Part shown: positions 1 through 5,051 of the stretch, one piece after another
How the letters are laid out: each line of letters starts with the position of its first letter
Numbering within the stretch: the stretch's first letter is position 1
NCBI GenBank assembly: GCA_013911625.1
Contig: JACESW010000064.1
Location: forward strand, 1 to 7,106
Length of the DNA stretch: 7,106 nt
DNA from: Cryomorphaceae bacterium
GTDB taxonomy: Bacteria > Bacteroidota > Bacteroidia > Flavobacteriales > Schleiferiaceae
Direction: 5' to 3'
Made by a program: the position numbers and the translations under genes
Notes under the pieces: generated by a model
The model's input: only the letters and a program-made list of their open reading frames with translations
Databases searched by the model: none
What the model was told of the DNA's origin: nothing

Positions 1-838
1 CATCATACCTGCCTACAATGCTGCGTCCACGCTAAAGGAATGTCTAGAAAGTGTGGCACGTCAGACTCTTCGACCTTTTGAGGTGATTTTAGTGGACGAC
101 GGGAGTACGGACAATACTAGAAGGGTTGCAGCAAAATTTGAATCCAAGCTCACTTTAAGGATTGTGAGTCAGTCAAATTCTGGCTTGGGAAAAGCGCGGA
201 ATGCAGGGATGGCGGCCGCTACAGGCGATGCTTATGCATTTCTGGATGCGGATGATATGTGGTTGCCGGGCAAGCTCGAGCAAGGGGTAAAGGCGCTTTT
301 AAAGTATCCAAAGACCCATTGGTTTTATACGCCGATTTTGGAGTGGACACCCGATAAAGAAAATGGTACGCGCAAGAGAGCCTGTAGCCAGGTCAGTTCG
401 CTGCGGTCCTTTTTGAGCTACAACCCCATAGTTCCTTCAACGATCATCATGCGCAGTAGTTTTGACTATGCATGGGAAAATGACAGGAACCTCCAGGAAG
501 ATGTCGGCGCGCATTTAAGAGTGCTTAGCCGTGGCGATTTTCCGAAGATGCTGCCAGAGGCGACCTTGAAATACCGGTTAGATTTCGGTATGACTGCAGA
601 TGCAGAGGGGCACGTAGATAAAGTGATGCGTGCAGTTGTGAAGGCTAAAGAGCTTGGTCACATCAGTGAGAAGGAATTTAAACTCTATGAGGCCCGTAAG
701 GCCTATGAATTGGCCCGAACGTACAAGAAGCGCGGCGATACTGAGGCGCAGAAGAAGTGGAAAACGGAAGCCTTGGATAAGGCAAAAACTACAAGAGTAC
801 CTCTAGGACTTTGGTGGCGGTTACTGGTATTAGTCTAG
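1..838 (+). CDS. Glycosyltransferase family 2 (GT-A fold), 5'-truncated by the window edge
   Basis: Likely transfers a sugar from a nucleotide-sugar donor to a surface glycan, at the cytoplasmic face. The reading frame is open from base 2, so the GTG at 53 is an internal valine and the true start lies left of the window; 278 residues are visible. They begin with the GT2 opening strand IIPAYNAAS, then ILVDDGSTDNT (visible residues about 29-39, nucleotide binding), GLGKARNAG (about 61-69), and FLDADDMWLPGKLE, whose DADD (82-85) is the metal-binding DxD-type motif. QEDVGAHLR (about 165-173) is a candidate acceptor-side acidic motif with the catalytic base. The last 60 residues are charged and helical (KLYEARKAYELARTYKKRGD), TPR-like, and end in a short hydrophobic tail (LGLWWRLLVLV) that may touch the membrane. 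The stop TAG at 836-838 overlaps the end of the convergent gene. The family is confident; donor, acceptor and pathway (LPS, capsule or exopolysaccharide) cannot be told without the neighbours to the left. Confidence 0.9.
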   Translation, partial: IIPAYNAASTLKECLESVARQTLRPFEVILVDDGSTDNTRRVAAKFESKLTLRIVSQSNSGLGKARNAGMAAATGDAYAFLDADDMWLPGKLEQGVKALLKYPKTHWFYTPILEWTPDKENGTRKRACSQVSSLRSFLSYNPIVPSTIIMRSSFDYAWENDRNLQEDVGAHLRVLSRGDFPKMLPEATLKYRLDFGMTADAEGHVDKVMRAVVKAKELGHISEKEFKLYEARKAYELARTYKKRGDTEAQKKWKTEALDKAKTTRVPLGLWWRLLVLV

Positions 839-1687
839 CCAATACGTCATTCCAACGGTTAAAAAAGAGAACGGGTAGTCGTTCAATCCTCGCGTCCAGC
901 CTACTTGTGTTTGGCCGAAGGACAAACTTTTACGCCATTGTAGCTCAAGTAATCTAGGCCAGTCTCCGTCCAGAAAGTATCCTGTAAAGGTGCGTAATTG
1001 AGCACTTAAAAAGGTGTTGTCTTTCTGCAGCTCTAGTTTAACATTACCAAGGAACCCGTCGTTTTGGGGGTAATCGACCCAGTGGGTCTGGTAGACTTGG
1101 AATCCAGCATCAGTGGTGAGTAATGGTTGCCAATTTCCTAAGGATGCGAAGGTTTTTTGATGCGAAAAGAAAAAGGCATAGCCTGGCGCATCGGTAAACC
1201 TCGCTTGAGGAAGCGGTCCCGCGGCTGTTTTCGTGTGAAACGTGAACCAAACCGAACCTTGTTCTTTTTGCCAAAGTCGCGTGCTGATATCGATCAAGAC
1301 ATCACCGGCGAGCACTCCTTCACCGTCCTGATCTCTAGAAATTCGCAAGTCTCGAACTTCTTCCGACATGCGATAATATTCAATCGATTGATGCGTAATG
1401 TGAATTTGTGTGTGGCCTCTGTCCCAATGCAGTTCGTTGTGCAGTGTTAAGAAGCTGTCGTCTTCGATGAGGCTCATTTGTGAGCTGCTCTTAAAATAGT
1501 TTCCACGGTCACTTCTTTGCAGTGTAGGGATGGGAATAGCATTTGGGCCTAGGTAAGCATGAGAATATTTCATGTATTGCGTCCACGGCGTCGCTCCGTC
1601 CCAGTTGTGAATTTGATTCCACCAATCCATCTGTGCAGTAGCGCTCAGCTGGCTAAGGAGTAAGAAAAGCAGAAGAATTCGACGCAT
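830..1687 (-). CDS. Secreted, probably outer-membrane beta-barrel protein of unknown function
   Basis: A 285-residue protein with a clear Sec signal peptide: MRR, a leucine-rich core, and an AxA site (A16-T17-A18, cleavage before Q19). The mature part opens with the aromatic segment DWWNQIHNWDG and has no cysteine. It is dominated by alternating polar/aromatic stretches of beta-strand length, for example TQIHITHQSIEYYRM, GSVWFTFHTKT, LSAQLRTFTGYFLDGDW and SFLTVGMTYWLD. This suggests a small outer-membrane barrel or a periplasmic beta sandwich. The C-terminus (YWLD) is aromatic but lacks the classical terminal phenylalanine. I do not recognise a characterised family, though it resembles conserved hypothetical proteins of Bacteroidota. 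Its ATG shares its A with the dnaX stop codon (TAATG), so it is probably translated by coupling from the dnaX message; no promoter is visible between them. Its 3' end overlaps the convergent glycosyltransferase by 9 bases. The gene is solid; the localisation is inferred and the function is unknown. Confidence 0.8.
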   Translation of the reverse strand: MRRILLLFLLLSQLSATAQMDWWNQIHNWDGATPWTQYMKYSHAYLGPNAIPIPTLQRSDRGNYFKSSSQMSLIEDDSFLTLHNELHWDRGHTQIHITHQSIEYYRMSEEVRDLRISRDQDGEGVLAGDVLIDISTRLWQKEQGSVWFTFHTKTAAGPLPQARFTDAPGYAFFFSHQKTFASLGNWQPLLTTDAGFQVYQTHWVDYPQNDGFLGNVKLELQKDNTFLSAQLRTFTGYFLDGDWPRLLELQWRKSLSFGQTQVGWTRGLNDYPFSFLTVGMTYWLD

Positions 1688-3582
1688 TATTCCAGGTCGG
1701 TATTTAGCTTCTCACGCAGGTAGAGCAGGTTGGGATTCTTTTCCACCATGTGCTTGAATTTCTCCTCAGGTAGATAGAGTTTCTTCGTCTGAACGTTTTC
1801 GGCCATCTTCACTTCAAAACGAAGGGCAAAGTTGTCCAATTTTTTGCGCAACCACGGGACCAGTTCTTTCTGTTCGTCGTTGAAGTAGCCCAGCTGGATG
1901 TTGTTGTCCACGGTGATTTCCAGCGTGTTTTTATCCAAAATCTTAGGTGCTTGCGCTTGAAGCATGCTGCGAATAGCTGTCTTAACGTGGCGCTGTTTGG
2001 TGTACTCGTCAAGGGCCAATTTTAATTCGTGCTCGGTGTATACGTTCTGCGGACCCTCTGTGGCTGCTGGAATATCGCTTTCAACCTCTGCGGCTTTTGG
2101 GGCAGTTGGCTCGTTCTCACTGGCCATTTCCTCCATCATAGCCGTAAGTGATAACCCGCCTTTTTTCTTGCCCGTGGTTCTGCGACGTCTGCCTTCTTTC
2201 GGAAGTTCAAAAGCAGCATCAGGAGAGGTTTCTGGCGGCGGTGCTACAGCTGGATTTTCTGGAATCGCTGGCTCCCCTGGCAAATTAGAATCGCTCACAG
2301 TTTCGTGCACAGGGGCAGTAGTTTGTGGAGCAGGAGCAGGAGCAGGGGGTGGTGCTTGTTGTGCTGGAGCCTCTTTCGCAGCTGGCAGGGGTGCAGATTC
2401 GACTGGCGCAGGGGTTATTTCTCGGGCTGGTTGAACAGGCGCTTTACCGCGTTTTGGAAGGGCATCCGGTAAGTACTGATCCGTGCCTTCCGCTTTAGGC
2501 GCTACGCTGGGTTGCGACTTTTTTTTTTCTTGCGAGATGAACTCGACGAGTTTAAGCAGACCCAATTCTACTAAAATTCTTGGCTGGCTCGATGCCTTGT
2601 ACTGACCGTCTAACTCATTGAAGACTTTCAATCCGTGCAACAAGAATCGTGTTGAGGTTGCTGCGCTTTGTTCGAGGTAGCGCTGTTTGATCGCTGGACC
2701 AACTTCAAGAAGTTCCACCGTTCTAGGCTCTCTAGCGACCAAGAGATCTCTAAAGTGCTTGGCCATTCCTACGACAAACTCGTGGCCGTTGAACCCTTTC
2801 TCTAGGACTTCATTGTACAAGAGGAGTAAATCAGGATAGTTTACTCCGGCGGCAAGGTCGATCGAGCGGAAGAAGTAGTTGTAATCAAGGATATCCAACA
2901 CTTCTACTACTTGATTGTAGGTGAGCTCGCTTCCAGAGAAGCTGACCATGCGGTCGAACAAACTCAAGGCGTCCCGAAGAGCGCCATCGGCTTTTTCTGC
3001 GATCATGTGCAGGGCTTCCGGCTCTGCTTTTACACCTTCTTTTTCGGCTACAAATGCGAGGTGTCCTGCAATATCATCCACCGTGATGCGCTTGAAGTCA
3101 AAAATCTGACAACGCGACAAGATGGTTGGTATGATCTTGTGCTTCTCTGTAGTCGCTAGAATGAAGATGGCGTGCGCTGGCGGTTCTTCCAGTGTCTTCA
3201 AAAAGGCGTTGAAGGCCTGCTGAGAGAGCATGTGCACCTCATCGATAATATAGACCTTAAATTTTCCGGTTTGTGGAGCGAATCGAACTTGATCAATCAA
3301 ACGACGGATATCATCCACAGAATTGTTTGATGCGGCATCCAATTCAAAGATGTTTAATGCCAATTCTTCTTCGGTCAAATTCGCATCGCCATTGATGACT
3401 TTCGCAAGAATACGGGCACATGTCGTTTTTCCAACGCCACGTGGACCACAGAATAGTAGGGCCTGCGCCAAATGATCACTGGCCACACTTTTAAGCAGTG
3501 TGTCGGTGATGTGACCCTGTCCAACCACCGACTCAAAGGCCTGAGGTCTGTATTTTCTTGCTGATACAATGAATTGCTCCAT
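1687..3582 (-). CDS. dnaX: DNA polymerase III subunit tau/gamma (clamp loader ATPase DnaX)
   Basis: DnaX is the ATPase of the clamp loader that opens the beta clamp and places it on primed DNA at the fork; the long (tau) form also binds the polymerase and helicase. The 631-residue product starts with the conserved FIVSARKYRPQAFESVVGQ, which fixes the start. It carries Walker A GPRGVGKT (46-53), ELDAASNNSVDDIR (80-93), Walker B IIDEVHML (112-119), sensor-1 ILATTEK (141-147), the arginine-finger region SRCQ (156-159) and sensor-2 GALRDALSLFD (200-210). The collar domain III runs to about 350. A Pro/Ala-rich linker (about 357-460) and a basic patch RRRRTTGKKK (465-474) follow, then the C-terminal domain (about 513-631), expected to bind polymerase. 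The Cys-rich zinc module usual between Walker A and the SNN motif is absent: the only cysteines are C45, C55 and C158. An A10 run at codons 352-355 may give a short gamma-like form. Its stop overlaps the downstream gene by one base (TAATG), and it diverges from rpsF. Confidence 0.97.
   Translation of the reverse strand: MEQFIVSARKYRPQAFESVVGQGHITDTLLKSVASDHLAQALLFCGPRGVGKTTCARILAKVINGDANLTEEELALNIFELDAASNNSVDDIRRLIDQVRFAPQTGKFKVYIIDEVHMLSQQAFNAFLKTLEEPPAHAIFILATTEKHKIIPTILSRCQIFDFKRITVDDIAGHLAFVAEKEGVKAEPEALHMIAEKADGALRDALSLFDRMVSFSGSELTYNQVVEVLDILDYNYFFRSIDLAAGVNYPDLLLLYNEVLEKGFNGHEFVVGMAKHFRDLLVAREPRTVELLEVGPAIKQRYLEQSAATSTRFLLHGLKVFNELDGQYKASSQPRILVELGLLKLVEFISQEKKKSQPSVAPKAEGTDQYLPDALPKRGKAPVQPAREITPAPVESAPLPAAKEAPAQQAPPPAPAPAPQTTAPVHETVSDSNLPGEPAIPENPAVAPPPETSPDAAFELPKEGRRRRTTGKKKGGLSLTAMMEEMASENEPTAPKAAEVESDIPAATEGPQNVYTEHELKLALDEYTKQRHVKTAIRSMLQAQAPKILDKNTLEITVDNNIQLGYFNDEQKELVPWLRKKLDNFALRFEVKMAENVQTKKLYLPEEKFKHMVEKNPNLLYLREKLNTDLE
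2495..2528 (-). other. Predicted dnaX frameshift/slippage site (A10-G run plus alternative stop codons)
   Basis: On the minus strand, ten consecutive A residues (2528 to 2519) are followed by G, read in frame as GAA-AAA-AAA-AAG (E352-K355). This contains A-AAA-AAG in the phase of the E. coli dnaX -1 frameshift heptamer. Shifting -1 (or gaining one A) gives seven new codons (VATQRSA) and then TAA at 2497-2495, a product of about 362 residues. Shifting +1 (or losing one A) gives SRNPA and then TAG at 2504-2502, about 359 residues. Either product would keep the ATPase and collar domains and lose the linker and C-terminal domain, as gamma does. I see no good Shine-Dalgarno stimulator upstream. 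Downstream there is only a weak 4-bp GCCT/AGGC stem, so transcriptional slippage, as known for Thermus dnaX, fits better than a stimulated ribosomal shift. This is predicted from sequence only. Confidence 0.6.
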
Positions 3583-4883: not shown

Positions 4884-5051
4884 ATGAAAAAGAAGACGAA
4901 AGCCGTCGACAAGAAGGTCATACCGTACCTAAGTGCGGGAATGATGATAGGTCTCCTTATTGGTTCACTTACAGACAACATAGGATTGTGGCTGTCTCTT
5001 GGTTTAGCAATAGGGGCGAGCGTAGGATACGCTCAAGTAGAAAAGAAATAA
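4884..5051 (+). CDS. Small two-helix inner-membrane protein of unknown function (55 aa)
   Basis: A 55-residue product: a very basic N-terminus (MKKKTKAVDKK), then two hydrophobic segments, about 13-28 (IPYLSAGMMIGLLIGS) and 33-50 (IGLWLSLGLAIGASVGYA), joined by the short turn LTDN, and the tail QVEKK. Glycines spaced by three or four residues (G19, G23, G27 and G40, G44, G48) look like a glycine-zipper arrangement for tight helix packing. By the positive-inside rule both ends should face the cytoplasm. The ATG at 4884 is chosen because the frame upstream, open from 4836, runs through the rplI terminator hairpin, and residues read from there look non-coding. The gene starts 14 bases past the terminator T tract, so it needs its own promoter or read-through; no convincing promoter is seen. 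It converges on the permease gene with one base between stop codons. Coding status is probable; function is unknown. Confidence 0.7.
   Translation: MKKKTKAVDKKVIPYLSAGMMIGLLIGSLTDNIGLWLSLGLAIGASVGYAQVEKK

Follow-up and report, generated by a model that had tools for sequence, protein, structure and literature searches.

In Thermus thermophilus, the dnaX gene of DNA polymerase III carries a run of nine A residues at which transcriptional slippage is reported, the shorter product being made at 50% (PMC1088944). For Escherichia coli dnaX, the process described is -1 programmed ribosomal frameshifting (PMC5009743, PMC3711429). Genes of yet another layout were gathered by Antonov et al. (2013), who list 17 dnaX genes made of two open reading frames, nine of them with ten A's, and propose transcriptional slippage for them (PMC3711429). 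Finally, a reversed candidate, in which it is tau that would be made by frameshifting, helped by stimulators like those of E. coli, is mentioned for Chlorobium phaeobacteroides with reference to unpublished work (PMC5009743).

The window analysed here is a stretch of 7,106 nucleotides from a Cryomorphaceae bacterium. Its minus strand holds a dnaX gene (DNA polymerase III subunit gamma/tau; 1687..3582) with a full zero-frame product, tau, of 631 residues, and a run of ten A's (A10; 2519..2528, minus strand, T10 on the plus strand), flanked by G on either side, lies in codons 352-355. As in Thermus, the run is on the sense strand and at least nine A's long, tau is in the zero frame, and stops stand close to the run in both other frames, beyond chance. 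The difference is that the Thermus run has nine A's, against ten at codon 352 of 631 in the window, and that slippage and a shorter product are reported there and predicted here. With E. coli the window shares A_AAA_AAG in phase with a -1 stop, and presumably a short product from the same gene; it departs from it by its ten A's, the lack of an unusual hairpin and the lack of a Shine-Dalgarno (SD) word. Relatives of the window with tau in the -1 or +1 frame resemble the two-ORF genes as Antonov et al. present them, tau requiring recoding. The window gene itself is of another type: its tau is zero-frame, and gamma would be the product of the slip.

Our reading, to which we give a probability of roughly 80% on the comparisons presented below, is that the A10 run serves as a site of programmed transcriptional slippage. 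RNA polymerase would realign the nascent RNA on the run, thus producing dnaX mRNAs with differing numbers of A's. Those with ten, or ten plus multiples of three, would give tau, while any other count would lead to a stop within seven codons, and to a gamma-like protein of about 359-362 residues comprising the shared N-terminal part only. Selection would then concern how long the run is and the presence of stops in the two frames other than that of tau, whereas the codon phase of the run would be free.

The dnaX gene and its A10 run

The protein encoded in the window matches the N-terminal model TIGR02397 (dnaX_nterm) from residue 6 to residue 345, over profile positions 3-354 of 355, with 368.9 bits for a cut-off of 250. 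It matches NF004046 with 402.2 bits (cut-off 400), contains the Pfam domains DNA_pol3_delta2 and DNAX_ATPase_lid and, in a phmmer search, aligns with E. coli gamma structures over residues 4-275. A narrower, full-length model, PRK14971 (NF011531), covers residues 1-630 with 682.8 bits, just below its 685; a match to this model is no defining feature of DnaX as such. The best named match is L001, from a Schleiferiaceae metagenome bin (71% over the best segment), and similarity places the window in Bacteroidota, close to Schleiferiaceae. TIGR02397, Pfam and phmmer place the shared N-terminal part, AAA+ ATPase and lid, in residues 1-345 (2548..3582, minus strand), where we also assume, by analogy with E. 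coli, that the collar belongs. The tau-only part, a Pro/Ala-rich linker followed by a C-terminal domain, both absent from gamma (1687..2518, minus strand), is recognised by the tau-tail profile described further on. Directly downstream of dnaX comes the gene of a 285-residue protein without Pfam or NCBIfam match (830-1687, minus strand). On the other side, and divergent from dnaX, lie the genes of ribosomal proteins S6, S18 and L9 (3719-4815, plus strand), followed by an ORF of 55 residues without NCBIfam hit (4884-5051). An Rfam scan of the window returned no match.

The run sits just beyond the end of the N-terminal model match. It occupies nucleotides 1055-1064 of the gene, from the second position of codon 352 to the second position of codon 355, and the zero-frame reading GAA AAA AAA AAG puts A_AAA_AAG in the phase known from E. 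coli. It is the longest A run of the gene, the next being two runs of six. An mRNA with 11 A's would be read in the -1 frame up to a TAA after seven codons (2495..2497, minus strand), giving a predicted gamma of 362 residues that ends in VATQRSA; an mRNA with nine A's would be read in the +1 frame up to a TAG after five codons (2502..2504, minus strand), giving 359 residues that end in SRNPA. Run, phase, codon numbers and both stop distances had been given by the initial annotation, and direct reading found them all right.

Conservation of the run and of the stops behind it

We compared 228 dnaX genes, the window included. The named loci (L001-L080) are the best 80 of 591 relatives; of the six peptide patterns that found them, one overlaps the codons of the run, a mild bias. 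L001 comes from genome G001. The family set holds 79 of the 83 dnaX matches that 88 genomes of this genome's family yielded, and the phylum set the 72 best matches, G001 apart, from 296 genomes sampled in the same phylum. The search for both sets used residues 1-345 alone, a part that stops short of the run. Three genes cut by contig ends (L130, L131, L164), the duplicate L081 and four partial family matches (in G344, G347, G329 and G302) were left out. Beyond the named loci, the taxonomic spread was judged from similarity.

Nine or more A's are present at the site in 215 of the 228 genes. Besides the window, these are 74 of the 80 named loci, 72 of the 75 family genes and 68 of the 72 phylum genes. 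Elsewhere in the same genes, only six runs of this length exist in 407,025 nt, which, with the A10 being the longest A run of the window gene, makes the run more than a matter of chance. Ten is by far the commonest length (177 genes), the others having nine (14), eleven (20), twelve (three) or thirteen (one). When the set is thinned to less than 75% identity in the shared part, the run is kept in 64 of 70 genes and has exactly ten A's in 50. In the 21 genes closest to the window it is never broken (A10 in 20, A11 in one), while in the shared part of these same genes the third base is constant in none of the 15 columns made of lysine codons throughout, and in two of the 15 made of glutamate codons. 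The run is seen in all three codon phases, and the base after it may be G, C or T. G359 has two dnaX-like genes, L171 and L180, with 13 and 11 A's at the site; this genome is perhaps a mixed bin.

How common such words are in whole genomes varies widely. In G370, G375 and G366 the dnaX run is the sole A10/T10 word of the entire genome. Exactly one such word is found in eight of the 88 family genomes; in seven it goes with a dnaX A10, and in G372 the dnaX gene is cut. G376 has three and G001 eight, while three family genomes (G344, G346, G384) have none. Several others are rich in them, up to the 193 overlapping words of G362, a genome with a dnaX that is yet devoid of the run.

The stops behind the run are conserved as well. 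Of 146 genes whose tau occupies the zero frame, 145 meet a stop within nine codons in the -1 frame, 133 do so in the +1 frame and 133 in both, against 51%, 41% and 21% at positions further on in the same genes. Thinning leaves 46 genes, with counts of 46, 41 and 41; in 5000 null draws for these genes the averages are 23.7, 19.9 and 10.4, and the highest values 35, 33 and 22. The enrichment of +1 stops goes beyond what -1 ribosomal frameshifting alone would predict. The initial annotation had proposed just this comparison of the dnaX nucleotide sequences of relatives, and its outcome is on the side of that proposal: the run is kept and its flanks drift, the out-of-frame stops are conserved in both frames, and an unbroken series of A's is indeed noteworthy next to lysine codons that vary in their third base at all 15 other columns of the close genes.

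Both the run and the hairpin module described below are lacking in ten of the 228 genes (L015, L025, L042, L049, L060, L072, L208, L213, L223, L228). Four of them are Bacteroidales (L015, L025, L049, L072), including Bacteroides, and two, L042 and L060, unclassified Bacteroidetes. In L042 there is an A10 about 100 codons further downstream; in the other nine no convincing substitute for the run was found, the A7 sites considered in L049 (z +0.9, no structure) and L223 (z -2.0, weak) having been rejected. Gamma production via this route is not kept everywhere. Further away still, 47 distant dnaX genes picked among the matches listed have, near the same place, nine A's in 22 cases, ten in two, and no run of nine in 23. 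A9 is thus frequent in place of A10 in these distant genes (L232-L234, L304-L312 and others).

Frame changes and the mechanism of the slip

In 68 of the 215 genes with the run, tau is outside the zero frame (64 have it in -1, four in +1), and the zero frame stops 0-6 codons past the run. A tau-tail profile built from 145 zero-frame tails recognises the tail in all 64 and all four, and also in the three hairpin-type relatives discussed below; on wrong-frame decoys, one of 306 scores. Even a single-sequence search with the tail of the window finds 48 of the 64 and all four. With tau in another frame, a slip must make tau in these 68 genes, and by homology with the shifted species the tract of the window should slip too. 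The slip proposed in the initial annotation thus gains support from relatives where it must work.

These changes of frame recur on the tree (FastTree, shared part). Counted by parsimony, which here takes no account of branch supports, the frame of tau changed 27 times over the 219 tips with at least nine A's, four distant genes included, and 22 times over the 178 A10 tips; the codon phase of the run changed 27 or 21 times on the same two sets. As far as these sequences tell, the run floats relative to the codons, and its length holds.

The mode of ten A's rather than seven, the occurrence of all phases, and the freedom to have G, C or T after the run favour RNA polymerase as the agent of the slip. 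The alternative that survives best, unlikely as we find it, is that -1 ribosomal frameshifting at the A_AAA_AAG of the run makes gamma, whether alone or together with some transcriptional slippage. In the window the heptamer stands in the phase required, and any A10 holds an A_AAA_AAR heptamer; against this, a site of seven bases has no need for ten A's, yet exactly ten are present in 177 of 215 genes. The displacement of tau mainly to the -1 frame (64 against four) is what ribosomal frameshifting would give, but it fits insertion-biased slippage equally well, and the four genes with tau in +1, like the enrichment of +1 stops, point away from the ribosome. Among genes that have the run in phase 1, a G comes next in 32 of the 38 with tau in -1, compared with 58 of the 107 with zero-frame tau. 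Together with the prevalence of -1, this makes some ribosomal share possible.

The search for stimulators leads to a similar balance. We folded the 50-60 nt downstream of the run and compared them with windows of the same gene and with dinucleotide shuffles. The mean z of the downstream 50-mers is -0.42 for 147 genes with tau in the zero frame, -0.41 for the 64 with tau in -1 and -0.48 for the four with tau in +1, against -0.24 in 214 control windows; z falls below -2 in 25 of 215 genes and in 15 of 214 controls, a small excess. When the reference is windows of the same gene, z averages +0.17 and lies below -2 in eight of 215. An SD-like word lies 4-20 nt upstream of the run in 39 of 215 genes, for a control rate of 0.12, again a small excess. 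These slight excesses, as well as the existence of an E. coli-like module in one clade of the same family, speak for the ribosome. The window itself speaks against it: the segment downstream of its run shows no unusual structure (z -0.37), hence no stimulatory hairpin of the E. coli type, and by eye no SD-like word of the E. coli type is seen 4-20 nt upstream. Moreover, Flavobacterium johnsoniae is reported to make little use of its anti-SD (PMC8710568). The initial annotation had seen no strong stimulators, which stands for the window, where both are lacking; in the relatives both are only a little above control. Three genes, L093, L119 and L205, have an unusually stable predicted structure after their A10 run (z -5.3, -4.2 and -3.2), possibly a sign of combined mechanisms.

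A much more improbable idea is that the locus is phase-variable, replication slippage switching tau on and off, or that homopolymer errors of assembly gave rise to the shifted genes. Departures from A10 are indeed scattered (35 changes on the tree, where the minimum of 50 shuffles is 36), and L038, with nine A's, and L139, with eleven, appear to be single-base changes, for which, as for other single cases, an assembly error is possible. For most shifted genes we rejected it: 55 of the 64 genes with tau in -1 have exactly ten A's, several of these genes lying megabases into a contig, and all 64 tau tails are intact. As for phase variation, tau is needed for replication in E. coli, and if the same is true here switching it off should stop replication. 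Least credible of all is that the run is kept for the protein, as a basic lysine patch, or by codon bias, without any recoding: A10 does encode two or three lysines in every phase, and AAA is the commoner lysine codon (3016 AAA against 1363 AAG upstream of the run), but the third-base drift of the lysine (15 of 15 other positions in the 21 close genes) and glutamate codons nearby led us to reject this, and against it also stand the shifting of the run relative to the codons and the 68 genes in which a zero frame that stops just past the run goes with an intact tau tail.

Programmed transcriptional slippage is thus the reading that we retain. A gamma-like form made by a slip, more likely transcriptional than ribosomal, is also what the initial annotation had suggested, and the conservation of the run, the stops in both frames and the flips of tau argue for it. 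For the organism of the window, slippage and its degree of efficiency are inferred from such comparisons, as are the existence of gamma and its function.

The hairpin-type clade and the place of gamma in the phylum

The only family genes of the set without the run are L169, L170 and L174, in genomes G363, G362 and G339. Around codon 354, A_AAA_AAG stands in the phase known from E. coli and is immediately followed by a zero-frame stop; tau is read in -1, with tails that the profile finds intact. Their run is A6G only, in L174 a little upstream of an A8. A predicted hairpin begins 6, 5 and 6 nt past the AAG, respectively, with minimum free energies over 60 nt of -19.9, -20.3 and -26.5 and shuffle z values of -2.95, -2.77 and -6.83. 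The three make up a single clade (support 1.0) that sits within A10 genes (0.91). All this together looks like the replacement of transcriptional slippage by ribosomal frameshifting. They share the downstream hairpin with E. coli, in a reversed arrangement, gamma being in the zero frame and tau the -1 product. The zero-frame gamma stop directly after the site is as in the Chlorobium candidate, which is therefore a precedent for the hairpin layout in itself; Chlorobium is of another lineage, and the part consulted of the article that mentions it says nothing of a position nested among A10 genes (PMC5009743).

Further genes of this type were looked for by scanning 395 genomes, of the order of G363, for the pattern. 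With at most one mismatch 118 of them match, but the reversed pattern used as a control also matches in many genomes, so that most of the 118 must be due to chance. Exact matches, among those listed, comprise the three known genes and one site in G446 (L323), which was rejected as a hairpin-type dnaX, the stretch giving no dnaX hit.

How much of this is new has to be weighed with care. The initial annotation knew of no description of the phenomenon in this group of bacteria. The type of gene had in part been described by Antonov et al. (2013), in a paper that, in the part consulted, mentions neither frame flips nor replacement by a hairpin module (PMC3711429). As to the breadth of the pattern, the flips and the switch, no report was found in titles and the first lines of abstracts, a scope outside which most of the subscription literature lies.

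Taken together, and with less assurance than for the run itself, we think it fairly probable that dnaX of Bacteroidota contains a frame-free cassette, where RNA polymerase, rather than the ribosome, would set the ratio of gamma to tau through the number of A's, where the zero-frame product would have flipped at least some 20 times, and where one clade would have gone over to a ribosome-level switch. All frames being always made on this view, the zero-frame product could flip without loss of either tau or gamma. The pattern in the family and the phylum is more interesting than the window's own run. Should the cassette be real, the family would offer a natural comparison of polymerase-level and ribosome-level switches, and the apparent change of mechanism within it makes the interchangeability of slippage and frameshifting testable with neighbouring sequences. 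The tract would also report on the slippage of RNA polymerase in vivo, in bacteria that, judging by F. johnsoniae, make little use of SD signals. It would explain, too, why ORF searches yield about 360-400 residues of DnaX in shifted species, with a tau that is read after the slip, and is unbroken. It has long been asked whether a separate gamma subunit matters in bacteria other than E. coli and Thermus. Most of the relatives sampled here appear to be under selection to make one, by a route that can be traced over many flips of frame.
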